NCBI GenBank assembly: GCA_002238765.1
Contig: MPMZ01000008.1
Span: 1 to 64,000, forward strand
Length of the DNA: 64,000 nucleotides
Reading direction: 5' to 3'
Source: Nitrospira sp. bin75
GTDB lineage: Bacteria > Nitrospirota > Nitrospiria > Nitrospirales > UBA8639
The notes under the pieces are model-generated. The model had not been told where the DNA came from. It saw only the letters and a list, made by a program, of their open reading frames with translations, and made no database searches. Position 1 is the stretch's first letter; each line of letters opens with the position of its first letter. The position numbers were made by a program, and so were the translations under genes. This document shows, one piece after another, positions 1-33,897 of the stretch.

Positions 1-24
1 GGGATTTATATCGAATAGTCACAT
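1..24 (+). repeat. Left terminal inverted repeat of the IS1595-type element
   Basis: These 24 bases begin GGGATTTATATCGAATAG and match the reverse complement of 3331-3354 with two mismatches. The window, and possibly the contig, begins exactly at the element end, as often happens when an assembly breaks at a repeated IS. Confidence 0.9.
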
Positions 25-30
25 CGACCC

Positions 31-243
31 TTAGCGTTTCCGCTTCGACTCTTTCTTGACCGATTTGACCCTCGCATTGACTGGCCGAAAGAACGCCTCT
101 CGCACCGTTTTCAAACTCGCCCCCGGCATATCGACCACCTGCTCCTTCTCGGCCTTTGACGGTTGGTAGTCCCGTGGCGGCATGATGATGGTGACGGGTT
201 TAGATCGAGGTTTGGATTTGGCTTTTGAGGTCCGTTTTTTCAT
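31..243 (-). CDS. Small basic protein, passenger of the IS1595 element
   Basis: A 70-residue protein of unknown function with lysine/arginine-rich ends. The start was chosen because AAGGAGA lies a few bases upstream of the ATG at 243; the open frame continues further upstream but overlaps the leader of the glycosyltransferase. The centre (YQPSKAEKE...DMPGAS, then AFFRPV) resembles a motif I remember from small proteins of unknown function in many proteobacteria, which is a weak recollection. It reads outward at the left end of the transposon. The IS1 element at 29929-33889 likewise has a short basic gene reading leftward, near its right end (33595-33831). The two share composition but no clear alignment. 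Confidence 0.6.
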   Translation of the reverse strand: MKKRTSKAKSKPRSKPVTIIMPPRDYQPSKAEKEQVVDMPGASLKTVREAFFRPVNARVKSVKKESKRKR

Positions 244-330
244 AGCCGGTAGTCTCCTTGAAACCGTCTTGACACCCTCACCATTCTGACCCATACTCTT
301 TTCTGCCAACATCTTGCAGGCTGTCCGAGT

Positions 331-514
331 GTGTCGGGCCTCCTGCTGAATACAAGAGCCTCGTCGTGCTGGACAGGGTAGCTCCCTCTCCAAATCGACT
401 GTTTTCCAATGGTAAATAGGTAGGACTTCCCTCGCAGTCTGCGGGATGTTGGCTGGCCCGACCTGTATGTAAATCGGGCCACTCATGAACCAGTCCCCTC
501 ATGAGGAGCCTGCC
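331..514 (+). promoter_or_regulatory. Riboswitch-like leader A, upstream of glycosyltransferase
   Basis: This leader shares blocks with 31589-31768 in the IS1 element: GTCGGG(C/T)C, AATACAA-AGCCTCG, GGTAGCTCCC, GGTAAATA and GGCCCGAC, then a ribosome binding site and ATG 104 nt after the start of GGTAAATA (98 nt in the other copy). Segment 455-462 (GGCCCGAC) can close a long stem with 333-340 (GTCGGGCC). It can instead form a local hairpin with 474-480 (TCGGGCC). The mutually exclusive pairing suggests a switch acting on translation. It does not match any riboswitch class I can recall. No ligand can be inferred. Confidence 0.5.
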
Positions 515-1423
515 ATGCCGAAGATCAGCGTTATTTTGCCCACCTATAACGGCACCACGCGCTTTGTGGATGAAGCCGTGTCCAGTATTCTCAAGCAGAC
601 GTTTCGTGATTTTGAGGTGATCGTCGTGGATGATGCTTCGACTGATCACACCATGAACTTTATTCAGACCCTCATGCCCTCGACACAGGTCACGCAATAC
701 GTCGCCCGTCCGGTCAATGGCGGGGCTGCCGTCGCTCGGAATCATGGCGCACGGCTCGCCAAGGGGGAATTTCTGGCCTTCCTGGATCAGGATGACTATT
801 GGCATCCCACATTTTTGGAGGAAGCGATGGAAGCGTTTGTCCAGCACTCGCCAACCATCGCCGTTATTCATGCCGATCATTGGCGTATTGACGTGACGCG
901 AAAACGAACGAAGTATGTCTCGACGTATCGTTCCCCGTCTCGCCGCACTCATCCTCATCATTTCTTCTGTCACGGGCATTTGTTTGCTGTCGAAGATGCC
1001 TTGTATCGGGCGTCGGTCTTTCATGACATCGGAGGATTTGATGGAACCTTGCGTTATGGGGAAGACACGGACTTGATCATTCGGCTGAATCAGGGGTACG
1101 AAGTCTGGCATCTGCCCAAAGCCTTGGTCACACAACGCCGGAACTACGGCATTTCGGCTTGTTCGGCCACGACGCCGCCAGAGTTGGTGTTGAGACATCA
1201 ACACACCGTCTTGCGCAAACACGCCGCCTTGTGTTTTGAGAGTCCCAAGTTGCTCAGGATCGTCCCAGCCTATGGAGCTATGCTGTATCGATCTCAAGGT
1301 AAGCATGTCTTTCGGTTGTCTCCAAAGAACAGACTTGATGCTCGTCAGTGGTTCAGAAAATCTCTCCAATGCAAAATCACAGCAGAAACCATCTTTTGGT
1401 ATCTGCGATCCTATTTTCCCTAA
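515..1423 (+). CDS. Glycosyltransferase family 2 (transposon passenger)
   Basis: A 302-residue GT-A-fold glycosyltransferase, probably transferring a sugar from a nucleotide-sugar donor to a surface glycan in the cytoplasm. The N-terminus has the family 2 pattern (ISVILPTYNG, then IVVDDASTD), and the metal-binding acidic motif is FLDQDD near residue 90. GGFDGTLRYGEDTDL near residue 180 fits the acceptor-side ED motif. The start at 515 is preferred over an in-frame ATG at 485 because GAGGAG lies just upstream and the homology begins at MPKISVI. It is the only metabolic gene in the IS1595 element and follows the shared leader. Glycosyltransferases are frequent in this genome's glycan cluster (39-46 kb), but none of those is close in sequence. 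Confidence 0.9.
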   Translation: MPKISVILPTYNGTTRFVDEAVSSILKQTFRDFEVIVVDDASTDHTMNFIQTLMPSTQVTQYVARPVNGGAAVARNHGARLAKGEFLAFLDQDDYWHPTFLEEAMEAFVQHSPTIAVIHADHWRIDVTRKRTKYVSTYRSPSRRTHPHHFFCHGHLFAVEDALYRASVFHDIGGFDGTLRYGEDTDLIIRLNQGYEVWHLPKALVTQRRNYGISACSATTPPELVLRHQHTVLRKHAALCFESPKLLRIVPAYGAMLYRSQGKHVFRLSPKNRLDARQWFRKSLQCKITAETIFWYLRSYFP

Positions 1424-1455
1424 ATGCGATACTCATTTCACACCCTTGACGATCT

Positions 1456-1938
1456 TCATGCTCCCTGTAATTTTTTGACAATCATGGGCGACGGCGAGTC
1501 TCGCAAGTGCGGGAAAAAGAACGGCAACAGCACATGCCGACTGAACTCCCACAGAGCCAAATGATGGTCGTTGTTGATGGACACATGACAGCGTTGGATG
1601 GGATTCCATGCAGGATGTGCGAGCAAGCGGTTTCCTGGACAATTGGGATGGACCACATTATAGAGTTCGACTGAGATCCCGCGTTCCGTCCGAATAAACA
1701 GAATTCGTGGTGTACTTCCATTCTCATCATCGACCTCATCGGTGTCATAGCGACGCAAACGAATGCTTGATCGCATTGAGGTTTCAACCTGATCGAGTTT
1801 CACATGATAGCCGTGCCGCTCTTCCACGGTCAGACCATTAAATTCATCTACGTCACGTTGAAGAATCGGCATGAGCCGATCAAACACATACACCGGATTA
1901 CATTGGACCGTTGGCGTTACCCATTGTGGATCACTCAT
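1456..1938 (-). CDS. Transposon-borne 160-residue protein, possible E2-like fold (copy A)
   Basis: Unknown function. The start overlaps the transposase stop in an ATGA, so translation is coupled to the transposase. It aligns almost without gaps to 31023-31487 in the IS1 element: VF..L......RD..EE.N (residues 19-34), HPNxP (97-101), PAWNP (109-113) and LW (129-130). The run YP/CP-x(n)-W-N-P-x(3,4)-C followed by a hydrophobic helix resembles the UBC/E2 core, where YP..PP, WHPN and the catalytic Cys occur in that order; here the Cys is residue 117. The Cys is offset by one between the two copies and no E1 or ubiquitin-like partner is recognised, so the fold is a hypothesis only. Confidence 0.6.
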   Translation of the reverse strand: MSDPQWVTPTVQCNPVYVFDRLMPILQRDVDEFNGLTVEERHGYHVKLDQVETSMRSSIRLRRYDTDEVDDENGSTPRILFIRTERGISVELYNVVHPNCPGNRLLAHPAWNPIQRCHVSINNDHHLALWEFSRHVLLPFFFPHLRDSPSPMIVKKLQGA

Positions 1939-2888
1939 GATTGCACTAGCTCCCGATACCGTAACCGCTTCCCGACTGCCCCCTGCACGATCATCGTCAT
2001 TTGGTCAATCGTATCCGCGTCACGGATGTTATGCCGTCCGGCAAATTCATTGACGTAGCGTTGTAAATGTTTCCGGCTCATCTTGTGGTAGGTGCCGTGA
2101 TACCCACGCTTGAGCATGGCCCAAAAGGACTCAATGCCGTTCGTATGGGCCATATCTCGCACATATTCCCCAACCGAATGATTCACTTGTTCCAGCGGAT
2201 ACCCGCGCTTCCTTAACCCACGATAGCCACGATTCCCGTCGCTATAGACTTGTGTCTTGGGTTCAGTATGACTGGTCACAAACCGTTGCAGGGTCTTCGC
2301 ACTGACTGTCGGCATGACCTCCGCTGTGACTTTATTTGTGGTCCGAGACTTGATCCCGACCACTGGCTGTTTGACGCCGAAACTGTTGCCATGTTGGGTT
2401 TTCTTCGAGGCATGCTTGTTTTTATCCAGCCCACCGATATACGTCTCGTCCACTTCCACGGCACCGGCAAAGGGGCTGGTCTGTGCCTCAAAGACTTTCC
2501 GGAGGCGATGCAGCATGAACCACGCCGCCTTTTGTCCGATGCCTAATGCCCGATGCAATTTCATAGAGGAAATGCCTTTGATGTCGGTGGTAAACAACGA
2601 GATCGCAACTGCCCATGGGCGATACTTGAGATTGGAGCCTTCAAAGACGGTCCCTGTTCGGACAGAAAACATCTTCCGGTTTGGACATTCCCGACACCGA
2701 TAATCCATCGTCTTATGCTTGATGTTGGATTGCACGTTCATGGTGCCACAATACGGACATTCAGGACCATTCGGCCAGCGTTGCTGGGCGATCCACGCCT
2801 TGGCGTCGGCTTCATCATGGAACATGTCGGCAATGTCAAAAAACGTCAATCCCTTTCGATGCGCTTTCCCTGGGGCTTTCTGTGCCAT
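1935..2888 (-). CDS. IS1595-family transposase
   Basis: A 317-residue DDE transposase for the surrounding element. An N-terminal zinc ribbon has CPYC (Cys44, Cys47) and CREC (Cys65, Cys68). The catalytic core shows VDETYIGG (Asp147), YSDGN (Asp217) and TNGIESFW (Asn250/Glu253), in the IS1595/ISXO2 arrangement. AGGAGG precedes the ATG at 2888. The frame is intact, so the element may still be active. The 3' end overlaps the next gene by four bases. Confidence 0.95.
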   Translation of the reverse strand: MAQKAPGKAHRKGLTFFDIADMFHDEADAKAWIAQQRWPNGPECPYCGTMNVQSNIKHKTMDYRCRECPNRKMFSVRTGTVFEGSNLKYRPWAVAISLFTTDIKGISSMKLHRALGIGQKAAWFMLHRLRKVFEAQTSPFAGAVEVDETYIGGLDKNKHASKKTQHGNSFGVKQPVVGIKSRTTNKVTAEVMPTVSAKTLQRFVTSHTEPKTQVYSDGNRGYRGLRKRGYPLEQVNHSVGEYVRDMAHTNGIESFWAMLKRGYHGTYHKMSRKHLQRYVNEFAGRHNIRDADTIDQMTMIVQGAVGKRLRYRELVQS

Positions 2889-3006
2889 GTCGTCGATTCC
2901 TCCTAGTCAAAATGTGACTAAAAGGTATCACGATTAGGAAATAAAGTCAAGGAAATTTCAGTAGTTTTATCCAATTATTTCTGCCTACATATGAAAGGAC
3001 TGACCC

Positions 3007-3273
3007 ATGACACCTGACGCCAGATTTGAAATTGACAAGATCGAGTTTCCTCATGACACCAACGCCATCATGGTGACGATTCAATATGTTCATCCTCCTG
3101 AATTAGCAGGACAGGCAAAGGAAATTCCCATTCTTTTCGCTTCTCCTGAGACACATGCACTTGAACTCCGCATGCGGGACACGATACAGAGTATTTCTGA
3201 CGAAATTCTTCGACAATACCGTCTAGGGTCTCCTTCGGAATTTTTAGGGTATACGGACCCCGAAGAGACTTAG
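3007..3273 (+). CDS. Hypothetical 88-residue protein in IS1595 element
   Basis: Unknown function. AAAGGA lies upstream of the ATG at 3007. The predicted layout is two or three beta strands (FEIDKIEF, IMVTIQYV, KEIPILF) followed by one amphipathic helix (ALELRMRDTIQSISDEILRQ). No signal peptide or catalytic motif is visible. It is divergent from the transposase and sits just inside the right inverted repeat. It does not end in the Gly-Gly expected of a ubiquitin-like partner for the neighbouring E2-like protein. Confidence 0.6.
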   Translation: MTPDARFEIDKIEFPHDTNAIMVTIQYVHPPELAGQAKEIPILFASPETHALELRMRDTIQSISDEILRQYRLGSPSEFLGYTDPEET

Positions 3274-3330
3274 GTTGAGTATCTTCCATTTTTCATCCAT
3301 CCCTTGGAAAAAGACATATCATTCCCTAAA

Positions 3331-3354
3331 ATGTGATTATTCGATATAAGTCCC
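3331..3354 (-). repeat. Right terminal inverted repeat of the IS1595-type element
   Basis: The reverse complement of these 24 bases matches positions 1-24 with two mismatches. The next base begins the interrupted TonB receptor. Confidence 0.9.
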
Positions 3355-19839: not shown

Positions 19840-19930
19840 GGAGAGGTGGCCGAGCGGCCGAAGGCAACGGTTTGCTAAACCGTCGTAGGCTAACCCCCTA
19901 CCGCGGGTTCAAATCCCGCCCTCTCCGCCA
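19840..19930 (+). tRNA. tRNA-Ser(GCU)
   Basis: A 91-nt class II tRNA with encoded CCA. Acceptor GGAGAGG pairs with CCTCTCC, the discriminator is G, the anticodon loop is TTTGCTAAA (anticodon GCT), there is a long variable arm, and the T arm contains GGTTCAAATCC. Its 3' end is the attachment site of the island that follows. Confidence 0.97.
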
Positions 19931-29920: not shown

Positions 29921-29928
29921 CTATGAAG
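29921..29928 (+). repeat. Target site duplication, left
   Basis: CTATGAAG, identical to 33890-33897. An 8-bp duplication is normal for IS1-family insertion. Confidence 0.9.
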
Positions 29929-29937
29929 GGTAGTGGG

Positions 29938-30825
29938 TCATTTTGAATTTCGCTTCTTGTATGAACCTCGCGGTCCTGGCTTCGGACGGGCCTCATTCAC
30001 CAGATTCACAATATCCTCAACCTCCCAGACGTGATCCGTGACTCCAGCAGCCATCGCCGGCGTAATCCCTTCTAGGCTTTTGTGTTGTCGACAGAAATTG
30101 TAGTACATGAAATGCAGTGACACGCTATGCACGTGGTTTTCAACCTTCTTGGAGAACGCATTGGTCAGACGAGTAAACCGGCGCATGGACATCCGCATGG
30201 TCAGGTTTTGTCTCTCGGCATAACTGGTCGAGACGTGTTTCGGATCGGGTTTGCCTGAAATCTTCCGTTTTCTGACACCGTTGCATTCGCCAGGACTATA
30301 TCGCGTTTCAGGCGAGGAACCGCCAGCCGACCCATACAGCTTGACCAACATCGCATAGTCCACGTCACCGCCGAAGGCTCCTTCCACGGCATCCAGATAG
30401 GCCCTCAATCCATCACTGGTCAGTTGGACACGATCAGCCAACCGTGACCGCAGATCGTCCATAAATTCAATGGCTGTTTCACTCGACCGATCTCCAACCG
30501 TCCAAGACGGAACCAGTTTCGTGTCGGCACAAATGGCCGTCCATGTCCAGACATCGCCTGCGCCCTTCGGGGCGTCCTTGGTTTTGGGGACATTCCTCTG
30601 CTTGGCATAGACGAAGGACCAGATCTCATCAACCTGAATGCGTTTGCAGGGCAGATCCCGAAGGACACGATCTTGGTAAGCGTTGCAGGCTTTGCCTGTA
30701 TCGACCAGTAGCTTCAAGACGGAGTTCTTGGTCACGTCTGCCGTCCGTGCTGTGGACAGCACGCTGTTGCCTTCAACCAAGCAACGGAGGATCAGGGTTT
30801 GGGTTTTGAGGGGCAATCGATTCAT
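29938..30825 (-). CDS. IS1-family transposase
   Basis: A 295-residue single-frame DDE transposase. The N-terminal helix-turn-helix (LILRCLVEGNSVLSTARTAD) is followed by QVDEIWSFVYAKQRN (first Asp), LTSDGLRAYLDAVEGAFG (second Asp), and FMYYNFCRQHKSLEGITPAM (IS1-type C-terminal motif). Unlike classical IS1 there is no InsA/InsB frameshift. The start at 30825 begins MNRLPLKTQ; the stop codon lies within the left inverted repeat. Confidence 0.9.
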   Translation of the reverse strand: MNRLPLKTQTLILRCLVEGNSVLSTARTADVTKNSVLKLLVDTGKACNAYQDRVLRDLPCKRIQVDEIWSFVYAKQRNVPKTKDAPKGAGDVWTWTAICADTKLVPSWTVGDRSSETAIEFMDDLRSRLADRVQLTSDGLRAYLDAVEGAFGGDVDYAMLVKLYGSAGGSSPETRYSPGECNGVRKRKISGKPDPKHVSTSYAERQNLTMRMSMRRFTRLTNAFSKKVENHVHSVSLHFMYYNFCRQHKSLEGITPAMAAGVTDHVWEVEDIVNLVNEARPKPGPRGSYKKRNSK

Positions 30826-31022
30826 GCCCCCATTACATGATCTTTGTACTTGTCTATCAAGCATTAGAGTATTTTAAATGAACGTTTAGGAATGTAGAAA
30901 AGCGAGCGTGTTCACTCCCTATTACTAGTAAACAATTAACGACAACTCAGGATGGTAGGAATATGTAAAAACTGGGCGAAGGTGGGTATGCTTCTGATGA
31001 AAAAACGATGTATACTTGTCTT

Positions 31023-31487
31023 ATGAACGATTGCCAACAAACCAATTGGGTAGCGACTCGGGCAGCGTGTTTTGTGCCTCACGTCTTTGGTGATTTAGCT
31101 GAGGTCGTGCGCCGTGACATGGAAGAAGCTAATCGTGTCTCACCGCTTTTGATGCGCGGCTTTAGCTTCTTTGTTTCCCCCAACCCAGAGAAACAGCAGA
31201 ACCGCTTGGAGGTGAGGCGGAGTGCTCCGTCCTCAACGTCTGTTGCAGATATTGTCGTCACCTTCACAATGACGACGGAAGCCGTTCGTATAGATTGTCC
31301 TGCTCATCCCAACTATCCCAAAGGATTTTTTCATGTGCGGCCGACGTGGAATCCTTCAGAAGGTCTTTGCTCTCTTCAAATTAACGGTCATGCCCATGAC
31401 CTTTGGCAAATTAGCCAAGAAGCCTTGGGCTACCTCATATTCCCCCAACCTCCAGACGAAGCGGCAGTCATTTTGGGGACGTTCTGA
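31023..31487 (+). CDS. Transposon-borne 154-residue protein, possible E2-like fold (copy B)
   Basis: A homologue of the product of 1456-1938. Shared, nearly ungapped: VFGDLAEVVRRDMEEAN (residues 21-37), HPNYP (95-99), PTWNP (107-111), LW (127-128). The stretch YPKGFFHVRPTWNPSEGLC followed by a hydrophobic helix ending FPQPPDEAA matches the order of E2 landmarks: YP, WHPN, G-x-x-C, then the helix before PNP. Cys116 would be the catalytic residue. No E1-like, JAB or ubiquitin-like gene is nearby, so function is open. It is divergent from the transposase. The start at 31023 is chosen to match the homologue; an upstream ATG exists at 31008. Confidence 0.65.
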   Translation: MNDCQQTNWVATRAACFVPHVFGDLAEVVRRDMEEANRVSPLLMRGFSFFVSPNPEKQQNRLEVRRSAPSSTSVADIVVTFTMTTEAVRIDCPAHPNYPKGFFHVRPTWNPSEGLCSLQINGHAHDLWQISQEALGYLIFPQPPDEAAVILGTF

Positions 31488-31588
31488 CTCGCACCTATTC
31501 CCCCCAGTCATTCAATAGTCATGCCCTATTTACTTGTCTGATACGTTCCCTTATACTCTTTTCATTCTGTTCCACTAGGACGACCCCA

Positions 31589-31768
31589 TTGTCGGGTCGG
31601 ACCTGCAATACAACAGCCTCGCATCGCCTCCGTCGGTAGCTCCCATGCCAGACGATGTTGCATCCCAAAAGGTAAATACAGGCACCGCCAATCGTCTTGG
31701 TGGAACAGAAACGGCCCGACCTTTGTCGTCTGGCCGCATTGCCCTACCAAGACGAAGGGAGGCCTGCG
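31589..31768 (+). promoter_or_regulatory. Riboswitch-like leader B, upstream of exported protein
   Basis: The counterpart of 331-514. GTCGGGTC (31591-31598) can pair, with two G-U pairs, with GGCCCGAC (31713-31720). The same segment can instead form CGGCC/CGAC with GTCG/GGCCG (31712-31736). Between them lie AATACAACAGCCTCG, GGTAGCTCCC and GGTAAATA (31671-31678). The leader ends in GGGAGGCCTGCG next to the ATG at 31769. Conservation between elements with different genes downstream argues for an RNA function rather than a coding one. Confidence 0.5.
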
Positions 31769-31939
31769 ATGCGACAACCCAACTCACGTTTCTTCATCAG
31801 TGTCCTACTCATTGGAGTCGTTGTTGGCTGTCTGACAACGGCCCAACCGAGTCGGGCTTGGGACGAGCTATGGATGCCCAAGGACTCGGAGTGGACAGAC
31901 GCCAATCGGAAACGCTACCAAGATTTTCCTCTAAAGTAA
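31769..31939 (+). CDS. Small exported protein, 56 residues
   Basis: Begins MRQPNSRFFISVLLIGVVVG, a typical signal peptide; cleavage is likely after PSRA, releasing a peptide of about 27 residues (WDELWMPKDSEWTDANRKR...). CLTT after the hydrophobic run could instead be a lipobox. GGGAGG precedes the start. It directly follows the shared leader. Unknown function. Confidence 0.7.
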   Translation: MRQPNSRFFISVLLIGVVVGCLTTAQPSRAWDELWMPKDSEWTDANRKRYQDFPLK

Positions 31940-32006
31940 GCCCTTTCAAGACCGATGCGAAACGCAACTAACGGCGGTACGAGGAACAAGGCCAACACAT
32001 GCTGAG

Positions 32007-32273
32007 ATGTCAGAGTGTATTGATTTGGTCGTGGATGCCTACTACGCCAATCAGTACAAGACGCCACACCAGGTCGGACGCCAAACCGAATCAGGGCGAG
32101 AAGGAGAGGTGCCGCGTCATGCCAAGCAAGCGGCCGTCCAGCAATGCCAAGACTCCTTGGAAGCCTTGGGCATCGAGTTGTCGTCATGGTGGCTCAATGC
32201 GTGTATCAAACAGGAACTACGGTCGTACCAGAAACTCCAGCGCGACTACGGTGATGTGCTGAATGCGCCCTGA
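32007..32273 (+). CDS. Hypothetical 88-residue protein in IS1 element
   Basis: Mostly helical, with two Cys (SECIDLVVDAYY; NACIKQELRS) and a WW pair. It begins MSECIDLVVDAYYANQ. No signal peptide or known motif is seen. It lies between the exported small protein and the exported nuclease, all in the same direction, so it is probably part of one transcript behind the leader. Confidence 0.55.
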   Translation: MSECIDLVVDAYYANQYKTPHQVGRQTESGREGEVPRHAKQAAVQQCQDSLEALGIELSSWWLNACIKQELRSYQKLQRDYGDVLNAP

Positions 32274-32285
32274 CAGGAGAATGTC

Positions 32286-33350
32286 ATGATGATCTTGTTT
32301 CTTCTGACAGTATTGGTGTTCGGTCTACCAAGCCATGCTGCCGAGACCGACATTCTCTCGGAAATGGAGTCTCACTTCCAAAATATCCTAGAGGGGATTG
32401 AGCAATCCGAGTACTCGGCAGAGGAGGTCGTTAAACGCCTCAAGACCTTTCGTGAAATGCTTCATCGTCAGATCCGCACCAAAACCCGAACTGAATTGGA
32501 GGCCCTGCTCAGCCAGGATGCGCTCTATATTGGCCCCCTTCCAGTACTTGAAGAGAATCCTTCAGGCAGTGGACGAGACCGATATCAACTGCTCTCTCCT
32601 CAGCAACTCCGGTCTCGTGCCCAAGACATCGCTCAGAAGCTGACGGCCGCCTTTGAACAGTCAAGAGATCATGCCCTAAAACTCGTCAAACAATTCGGGG
32701 CGGAGTACGGAACCTGTCGGGCTAGGGATGTCTTGGAGGCCGAGATCCCATTGGTTGAATTAACGACGTGGGCCGACTCCTACGACTTTCGCGCTAACAA
32801 AGAGAGAGGCATTCGTCGATTCAATGAGACGTTCCACCGCCTGAAGACGGAGGCAATGCAAAGAAACAAGATCATGGCGTTCGATTGCATGATTGCTGGC
32901 CTCATCCATCGCACGACCAACAAAGACGATAAAACCACACAAGAACTCTCTGGTCGTCCCACGGTGATTGATGCGGACACCTTACTCTTGTCTGGCACAC
33001 GGATTCGACTCCACGGAATTGATGCGCCAGAGAAGGAACAGCGGTGTGCATACTCCAGTGGGAGAGAGTACTTGTGCGGAATCGCAGCGACGGAGGACTT
33101 GCGGGCCAAGATTGGGGATGCGTCTGTCAGATGTGTCATCACTGGACGAGGAAAATACCAGAGACTAATTGGGCATTGCTACCTTGGTGACATGGAATTG
33201 AATCACTGGTTGGTCGAACACGGCTATGCGCTTGCTTATAGACCATCTTCAACACAGTATGTAGCTGAGGAGCAGAAGGCTCAAGCTTCGAGACGTGGAA
33301 TCTGGAGCGGAGCGTTTGAGAAGCCGTGGGAGTGGCGGCAGAGGCATTAA
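32286..33350 (+). CDS. Exported thermonuclease-like (SNase) protein
   Basis: A 354-residue protein with an N-terminal signal peptide (MILFLLTVLVFGLPSHAA), a helical region of about 190 residues, and a C-terminal staphylococcal nuclease-like domain from about residue 225: TVIDADTLLLSGTRIRLHGI, DAPEKEQRC, GKYQRLIGHCYLGDMELNHW and GYALAYRP. The Asp, Glu and Arg positions of the active site look present (DADT, APEKE, KYQR). It should degrade DNA or RNA outside the cytoplasm. GGAGA precedes the ATG pair at 32286. Confidence 0.85.
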   Translation: MMILFLLTVLVFGLPSHAAETDILSEMESHFQNILEGIEQSEYSAEEVVKRLKTFREMLHRQIRTKTRTELEALLSQDALYIGPLPVLEENPSGSGRDRYQLLSPQQLRSRAQDIAQKLTAAFEQSRDHALKLVKQFGAEYGTCRARDVLEAEIPLVELTTWADSYDFRANKERGIRRFNETFHRLKTEAMQRNKIMAFDCMIAGLIHRTTNKDDKTTQELSGRPTVIDADTLLLSGTRIRLHGIDAPEKEQRCAYSSGREYLCGIAATEDLRAKIGDASVRCVITGRGKYQRLIGHCYLGDMELNHWLVEHGYALAYRPSSTQYVAEEQKAQASRRGIWSGAFEKPWEWRQRH

Positions 33351-33594
33351 AGAGGTGGAGGCGGCGGAGAACCGTCTTGGCTAGCCTCACCAAAACTGTT
33401 CTCGGTCTCCCCCGAATGATTCCCTTTCCCCGGTCACATTACGAGCAAGCGGGGGAAATCAAGCTAACAGGTCAACTGCAACCCTGTTGCAATTGGGCCG
33501 CTAACCCCTAGCAGTACTGCCAAGTGTATCAAGTATTGTATCAAGTGTACCTAACTATAATACTACCAACTTTCTGGTTCATCAAGAGCAAGTG
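33351..33594. other. Gap with repeats at IS1 right part
   Basis: No gene seen. It contains a near-perfect hairpin (CAACTGCAA...TTGCAATTG, 33476-33498) and the direct repeat GTATCAAGT twice at about 33527-33548. Confidence 0.5.
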
Positions 33595-33831
33595 TCATTT
33601 TTTTCGTCCCCACCTTGCCTGAGCCGCTTGTTTGGCAATCTCTTGCCGACGTTCTGGTGACAGCCTGTCTGCCCTGGCCTTGCCACCTTTCAATCCTCCC
33701 GCTTGGGCAAAGGTATTGACGGGGTTCACCTCCTGACTGGCTTCTCGCTCGCCAGTGGCGACATCCACAACGAATTTCGCTAGTTGATTCGCGTCGCGTG
33801 GCCTCTTGACTTCTTGTTTCATGTTCGACAT
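33595..33831 (-). CDS. Short basic protein, 78 residues, in IS1 element
   Basis: The C-terminus, GGLKGGKARADRLSPERRQE and IAKQAAQARWGRKK, matches a widespread small basic motif seen in histone-like or RNA-binding-type hypothetical proteins; the first half is acidic to neutral. Likely nucleic acid binding, by composition. It reads inward from the right end of the transposon. An alternative start lies at 33859, but AGGAGG at about 33842 favours 33831. Confidence 0.65.
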   Translation of the reverse strand: MSNMKQEVKRPRDANQLAKFVVDVATGEREASQEVNPVNTFAQAGGLKGGKARADRLSPERRQEIAKQAAQARWGRKK

Positions 33832-33870
33832 CTTTGCATACCTCCTTGCGGTTTGTCACTAGGGTCAGAT

Positions 33871-33889
33871 TTCAAAATGACCCACTACC
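33871..33889 (-). repeat. Right terminal inverted repeat of IS1-type element
   Basis: A perfect 19-bp match to the reverse complement of 29929-29947. Confidence 0.95.
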
Positions 33890-33897
33890 CTATGAAG
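33890..33897 (+). repeat. Target site duplication, right
   Basis: CTATGAAG, identical to 29921-29928. Confidence 0.9.

Follow-up and report, generated by a model that had tools for sequence, protein, structure and literature searches.

A leader RNA shared by two transposons of Nitrospira sp. bin75 is a distant relative of sRNA-Xcc1 and probably a translational switch

Background

The Rfam family RF02221, sRNA-Xcc1, occurs in Xanthomonas, Xylella, phages and integron cassettes. In Xanthomonas, sRNA-Xcc1 was mapped by Northern and RACE as an RNA of 88 nt (PMC2996969). It has been filed and cited as a trans-acting sRNA, and in the widest integron cassette of Xanthomonas it precedes symE and is oriented as that gene is (PMC12444791). 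For its trans action, our literature search gave target predictions only. In another described system, IsrK, a single promoter gives both a short RNA and an mRNA that is long (PMC4825925).

The present analysis concerns a leader found twice in the window, i.e., the whole stretch of 64,000 nucleotides of contig MPMZ01000008.1. A preliminary description had regarded it as a translational switch or regulatory RNA of two transposons that fits no known class. The observation is confirmed and extended below, and the interpretation is supported in part. The structure of the leader, its covariation, its complementarity to its own SD and its kinship were established computationally.

Results and discussion

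The two copies and their transposons

The two transposons and the genes behind the leaders are as follows.

1..3354, no strand: transposon a (3.35 kb), TIRs at 1-24 and 3331-3354 (24 nt, 92%; repeat search); on the left it stops where the contig stops
503..1423, + strand: glycosyltransferase family 2 gene behind copy a with its SD (GAGGAG, 503-508); start ATG at 515, in-frame ATG at 485 possible, end at 1423
1935..2888, - strand: IS1595/ISXO2-type transposase of transposon a (Pfam PF12762, E 9.6e-42)
29927..33891, no strand: transposon b (3.97 kb), TIRs at 29927-29947 and 33871-33891 (21 nt, 100%)
29938..30864, - strand: IS1-type transposase of transposon b (Pfam PF03400, E 1.5e-7)
31769..31939, + strand: ORF of 56 aa behind copy b, secreted or lipoprotein-like
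32286-33350: SNase-family gene after the copy b ORF (Pfam-confirmed)

The leader is about 160 nt long in both transposons and lies immediately 3' of a promoter. That the two leaders share their blocks in identical order was confirmed by reading and by alignment: TGTCGGG(C/T)C, AATACAA, GGTAGCTCCC, GGTAAATA, GGCCCGACCT and AGG..CTGC.ATG, with GTCGGG(C/T)C at 333-340 in copy a and 31591-31598 in copy b. As had been noted, the genes behind them differ (the family-2 glycosyltransferase against the 56-aa ORF and the SNase-family gene), and the start codon follows GGCCCGAC at a nearly equal spacing (52 nt in copy a and 48 nt in copy b). The alternative pairing of GGCCCGAC, upstream or downstream, also exists in both copies, the downstream partner being 473-480 in copy a and lying within 31713-31736 in copy b.

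SNase-like secreted nuclease genes are found repeatedly behind leaders of unrelated lineages (window 32286-33350, L179 and L358), Pfam confirmation applying to the window copy only. The sole Rfam match at the gathering score within the window is a tRNA gene (19840-19927).

Anatomy of the leader

The elements recognized in the two copies are the following.

269..297, + strand: promoter of copy a, TTGACA (269-274), 17 nt, CATACT (292-297), from the sequence
305..323, + strand: P1 5' strand of copy a, GCCAACATCTTGCAGGCTG, where the RNA is predicted to begin
333..340, + strand: pseudoknot 5' strand of copy a, GTCGGGCC, corresponding to the first helix of sRNA-Xcc1
342..424, + strand: P2/A-rich loop/P3-P4 domain of copy a, with CCTGC (342-346), TGAATACAAGA (347-357), a hairpin with GGGTAGCTCCC (376-386), GGTAAATA (411-418) and GTAGG (420-424)
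425..434, + strand: pyrimidine-rich linker of copy a, ACTTCCCTCG, a candidate anti-SD in the position of the relatives' anti-SD linker
435..453, + strand: P1 3' strand (P1') of copy a
455..462, + strand: pseudoknot 3' strand of copy a, GGCCCGAC
473..480, + strand: alternative downstream partner of GGCCCGAC in copy a, ATCGGGCC (fold of 455-480, -11.5 kcal/mol)
31552..31557, + strand: -10 element of copy b, TATACT, from the sequence
31565..31583, + strand: P1 5' strand of copy b, TTCTGTTCCACTAGGACGA
31591..31598, + strand: pseudoknot 5' strand of copy b, GTCGGGTC
31602..31682, + strand: P2/A-rich loop/P3-P4 domain of copy b, with CCTG (31602-31605), CAATACAACA (31606-31615), GGTAGCTCC (31635-31643), GGTAAATA (31671-31678) and CAGG (31679-31682)
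31692..31710, + strand: P1 3' strand (P1') of copy b
31713..31720, + strand: pseudoknot 3' strand of copy b, GGCCCGAC
31746..31762, + strand: P1'' and SD of copy b, ACCAAGACGAAGGGAGG, complementary to 31685-31701 (linker and P1') in an SD-masking hairpin

The outermost element, P1, is a helix of 14-20 bp in nearly every copy; its sequence varies between copies while the two strands stay matched. A -10-like hexamer occurs just 5' of P1 in 58 of the 72 members, against 24 of 72 in a control stretch. As the gap between this hexamer and the P1 5' strand is 4-9 nt in most members, the P1 5' strand is predicted to be the 5' end of the RNA. The structured part starts earlier than had been noted, at the predicted transcription start (305 in copy a and 31565 in copy b), and the coordinates need to be widened accordingly, because P1 includes bases that the preliminary description had left out.

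Inside P1 the order is GUCGGG, P2 (CCUGY/RCAGG), an A-rich internal loop in which GAAUACAASA faces GAAUA or AAAUA, and P3-P4 with a GGGU(A/C)GCUCCC hairpin, which may be reduced to a tetraloop (L171, L175). Because CCCGAC lies directly 3' of the P1 3' strand, the GUCGGG/CCCGAC helix crosses P1 and forms a pseudoknot. One leader (L190, 1501-1665) has a duplicated GGUAGCUCC hairpin motif.

Covariation of the helices

Among 68 distinct sequences, 93.3% of the cells are paired and double-sided changes occur in 37 of the 42 pairs. Cells with double changes number 644 in these sequences, against 196 in shuffles (0 of 500), and the covariation score is 0.63, against 0.21 in shuffles. When the strands are slid as a control, the paired cells fall to 31-46%. 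With 81 sequences, the score is 0.743 against 0.202; the absence of covariation in further homologues, which had been named as an outcome that would speak against the reading as an RNA, is therefore not what is seen.

Since the alignments behind these values had been fitted to the model, the P1 strands were also compared without any alignment. The mean duplex energy of a leader's own strands is -30.8 kcal/mol, against -14.7 kcal/mol for swapped strands, and the own partner is the best in 46 of 51 cases (0 of 5000 permutations; the permutations ignore phylogeny, but common ancestry would favour swapped pairs, not disfavour them). Repeated on 72 leaders, the own-versus-other comparison gave 0 of 2000. 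P1 is the main covarying element of the leader. The pseudoknot helix, in contrast, is nearly invariant, with four of its nine pairs changed on both sides, and covariation supports it weakly. The preliminary description, which had seen compensatory variation in the GGCCCGAC pairings, had missed P1.

A conservation at the level of DNA or protein would make the leader a transposon end, a site like the attC of integrons, or else the reverse complement of a conserved protein frame. The location of leaders inside transposons, and of sRNA-Xcc1 in integron cassettes (PMC12444791), would agree with a DNA element, but most copies lie away from element ends, their position between promoter and SD is fixed, and G-U pairs are tolerated throughout the leader helices. 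An antisense frame stays open in 18 of the 51 leaders at most, so the antisense-frame explanation foreseen in the preliminary description fails as well. These non-RNA readings are very improbable. An attC-like recombination site was rejected on inspection, the orientation of the inverted core being unfit and the place between promoter and SD fixed, and the antisense frame was rejected on the count of 18 of 51.

Masking of the SD

The linker and P1' are complementary to the SD region of the leader's own gene, beating swapped combinations in all permutations (0 of 2000; 72 leaders), and a control stretch after the ATG has no such excess complementarity to them (187 of 2000). The best linker/P1' duplex covers the SD in 55 of the 72 leaders. 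The signal is significant, yet modest in the single sequence (median rank 22 of 72). In MFE structures of the 3' half, the SD is masked by the linker or P1' in 25 of 48 leaders, clearly so in L175 (TCCTTATAAATTTTGTC with GACAAAATTTGCTTAAGGA), L177, L172 and L147. The P1 5' strand, in turn, resembles the SD region of its own gene (direct-repeat test, 0 of 5000); the resemblance is clear in roughly a dozen members.

The SD-masking hairpin of copy b was recovered blindly as an inverted repeat (31685-31701/31746-31762) that includes GGGAGG. The MFE structure of the whole leader is the fold with this hairpin (fold B) in copy b and the fold with P1 (fold A) in copy a. For the SD of copy a, the prediction is a local hairpin (approximately 483-504) and not pairing with P1'; as its partner is a nearby segment, the expression platform varies.

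The GGCCCGAC strand gave no own-versus-other signal with the downstream sequence (584 of 5000). GGCCCGAC alone as the switch was rejected, the downstream GGCCCGAC hairpin not demonstrably co-evolving in that comparison.

Proposed mechanism

Because the P1 3' strand is complementary both to the P1 5' strand and to the SD region, two mutually exclusive folds exist, through which a cis-acting 5' leader RNA would control translation. In fold A, the P1 5' strand would pair with P1', and GUCGGG with the CCCGAC just behind P1', around the core of P2, A-rich loop and P3; the SD would be left free (ON). In fold B, the linker, P1' and the CCCGAC strand would pair with a segment that includes the SD and the bases immediately 5' of it (OFF). 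The choice of fold would fall to the conserved core, which most likely binds a ligand or protein or else serves as a processing scaffold. We infer that the leader would switch, being ON with P1 and the pseudoknot formed. As P1 (-30 kcal/mol) is far longer than in the usual riboswitches, re-pairing may be slow and the fold may be set co-transcriptionally.

The most probable reading, though not a firmly secured one, is therefore that the leader is a bistable cis translational switch, a divergent branch of the sRNA-Xcc1 superfamily, and that promoter and leader are spread as a unit by transposons. The phage members of this superfamily would govern antirepressor genes through the same pairing of linker and SD, in a manner close to C4 RNA. 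The earlier proposal of a translational switch or regulatory RNA fits a structured, covarying leader with exclusive pairings able to mask the ribosome site.

The very stable P1 begins at the predicted 5' end of the transcript (the -10 ends 4-9 nt earlier in most members), as would be expected if P1 and the pseudoknot at the 5' terminus merely shielded the mRNA from decay that depends on the 5' end, with no switching. Such a passive stabilizer would leave unexplained the conserved A-rich loop, the conserved pseudoknot and the excess complementarity of P1' to its own SD, and the phage relatives described below are without P1 yet keep the SD pairing. This explanation is improbable.

Distribution and downstream genes

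Further copies were found in the same genome by BLAST, some of them preceding small lipoprotein genes, and 31 distinct copies in related genomes. The covariance model R1, a check proposed in the preliminary description, was run on the whole genome and finds the window copies at E 3e-24 and 6e-20; both are in its training alignment, so that the independent test lies in copies outside that alignment, and its E-values are rough. Within the same Nitrospirales genus, R1 matches 46 sites, spread over 13 of the 14 genomes, which is far beyond chance. In a sample of 296 genomes of the phylum, ten matched, every one from that genus, and the other 286 gave zero R1 matches.

A pattern scan of public genomes found carriers among Nitrospirales MAGs, several of which have titles or isolate names that point to sponge or coral, as well as single matches in Gammaproteobacteria, Alphaproteobacteria, Latescibacterota and Binatia, where the helices are formed as well. 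With model R2, the leader is found in 12 of 136 genomes of an alphaproteobacterial order, 7 of 53 genomes of a gammaproteobacterial order, 23 of 64 genomes of the phylum Latescibacterota and 16 of 145 genomes of the class Binatia, with a maximum of 18 copies per genome. Several of the hosts are MAGs, in which single contigs could be misbinned. One such copy (L106/L168) comes from a Binatia MAG, where its contig (JAJDZM010000059.1) is 7.3 kb long, with a leader of the Nitrospirales type and the same type of lipoprotein; misbinning or recent transfer is possible.

An element of about 0.95 kb occurs at six or more places in the same genome (C33, C11, C74, C29, C99, C54; L002-L007, L145, L154). 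The copies share a stretch of 950 bp with ATTATCCNTTTAACTTGAC inverted ends, and the leader lies in six near-identical ends. The cargo is a promoter, the leader and a membrane protein of 70 aa; no transposase was seen in it, and the element is MITE-like. Leaders also occur in pairs: two divergent ones stand back to back within about 400 bp (L160, G004:C86:12512-12904), and tandem leaders on the same strand (L174/L187 in G327:C189, L358/L370 in G453:C132, and L201 in a phage) resemble tandem riboswitches.

Of the 72 downstream proteins, 53 have a hydrophobic N-terminus, against 10 of 34 background ORFs, and many have a lipobox and a Gly run. The unit of promoter and leader, moved by transposons, stands before genes whose products are lipoproteins or are exported in other ways. 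Most copies precede chromosomal genes of this kind, and the attribution of the RNA to the transposons themselves is not supported.

Relationship to sRNA-Xcc1 and to phage leaders

At the gathering score, Rfam gave no match on the window leaders, the leader region or the first relatives, nor any plausible riboswitch match at permissive thresholds; a known Rfam class at that score was rejected for the window leaders and the leader region. In the divergent member L141, a match to RF02221 falls exactly on the leader, as it does in L179, and RF02221 is the best Rfam family for both. The best leaders score 28-39 bits (28.3 in L141, 31.4 in L179 and 39.2 in G453:C132), below the RF02221 gathering cut-off of 53 bits. 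The cmscan alignment of L141 has the RF02221 core in order (closing helix, P2, AAUACAA loop, P3, (G)AAUA and P2'), and its first helix corresponds to the GGCCCGAC pairing. When RF02221 was run on 12 whole genomes, each of its ten best matches (E up to 0.17) fell on an R2 leader site, none above the cut-off; reciprocally, R2 detects RF02221 sites of phages (best E 0.0027). With no RF02221 score over the cut-off, the window leader is a distant relative of sRNA-Xcc1 and not a member by the Rfam rule. That no known class fits was thus too strict a statement for its core.

In viral contigs and E. coli prophages, the scan found RF02221 above the cut-off at sites that immediately precede antirepressor genes (Ant, KilA-N/BRO-like), which agrees with the annotation of the phage records. 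The linker of these leaders pairs with its own SD at -18.8 kcal/mol, against -11.3 kcal/mol (0 of 5000; controls negative), and covers the SD in 35 of 39. Such cis complementarity argues, on sequence grounds, for cis rather than trans action of RF02221. The upstream strand of the phage leaders has no clear complementarity to the linker (314 of 5000), and P1 is therefore specific to the branch of the window.

In one viral contig (L209, IMGVR_UViG_3300025325_001027), an sRNA-Xcc1-like leader occurs together with a C4 RNA and two hammerhead ribozymes of type II. A BLAST search with the RF02221 consensus in plasmids gave a single usable record, a Neisseria entry: a chromosome-like 2.17-Mb 'plasmid' of Neisseria gonorrhoeae in PLSDB (L197, NZ_CP119140.1) in which a KilA-N-like gene is preceded by a copy of sRNA-Xcc1.

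In phages, the linker is complementary to the antirepressor RBS in two blocks, which copies the C4 design (PMC12197685), and the leader might likewise be cut or terminated to give a free RNA of about 90-160 nt that silences its own or a sister mRNA at the RBS, the core being a scaffold for processing or stability and not a sensor. The 88-nt sRNA-Xcc1 (PMC2996969) and the short RNA of IsrK (PMC4825925) agree with such a C4-like antisense. However, each copy in the window branch owns a P1/P1'/SD triple, so that cross-regulation of sisters is not expected; inspection revealed no intrinsic terminator between core and gene; and the 5' strand of P1 would have no antisense role. This alternative is rather unlikely.

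The conserved core occurs in the antirepressor leaders of phages and in integron cassettes and, across five or more bacterial lineages, in as many as 18 leaders per genome. It is conceivable, but doubtful, that this core (the pseudoknot and the AAUACAA/GAAUA loop) is the aptamer of a new riboswitch superclass sensing a widespread signal, with sRNA-Xcc1 a mis-filed member.

Implications

The finding joins sRNA-Xcc1, regarded as a virulence-linked trans-acting sRNA, with phage antirepressor leaders and with exported-protein genes of bacteria associated with marine hosts, the association resting on MAGs whose record titles or isolate names point to sponge and coral. If it is true, sRNA-Xcc1 and its annotated homologues would have to be re-read as cis leader switches, the predicted trans targets of sRNA-Xcc1 would become suspect, and mobile elements would carry, besides their cargo, a ready-made unit of promoter and translational control. 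What signal the conserved core senses becomes a concrete question.

Comparison with known systems

The leader resembles translational riboswitches in having a conserved core beside exclusive pairings of an expression platform and in occurring in many copies per genome before exported proteins; a covarying, conserved fold with exclusive platform pairings, as expected of a riboswitch, was found. It differs from them in that no Rfam riboswitch family matches it and in its far longer P1.

IsrK of the Salmonella prophage Gifsy-1 (RF01394) is likewise an RNA 5' of an antirepressor gene in which alternative structures control the ribosome site (PMC4825925). In contrast to IsrK, the leaders have no Rfam IsrK match, and the short IsrK is a trans activator.

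With C4 of phages P1 and P7 (RF01695), the leader shares segments complementary to the ribosome site, there of the antirepressor mRNA (PMC12197685). Such complementarity to the RBS of the downstream gene is strong in the phage relatives and weaker but significant in the window branch. The C4 model had no match on any leader tested at any threshold used. We know of no 5' P1 competitor in C4.

The closest system is sRNA-Xcc1, with which the leader has in common the GUCGGG-type helix, P2, the AAUACAAYA/(G)AAUA loop around P3, P2', the linker and the closing strand, as well as the position on the same strand upstream of genes and on mobile DNA. In contrast to sRNA-Xcc1, the window branch has lipoproteins and exported proteins as targets and a P3-P4 of larger size, and it adds a P1 of 14-20 bp from the 5' end of the RNA, which makes the GUCGGG helix a pseudoknot; this platform of P1 and pseudoknot at the 5' end is new relative to the sRNA-Xcc1 literature found.
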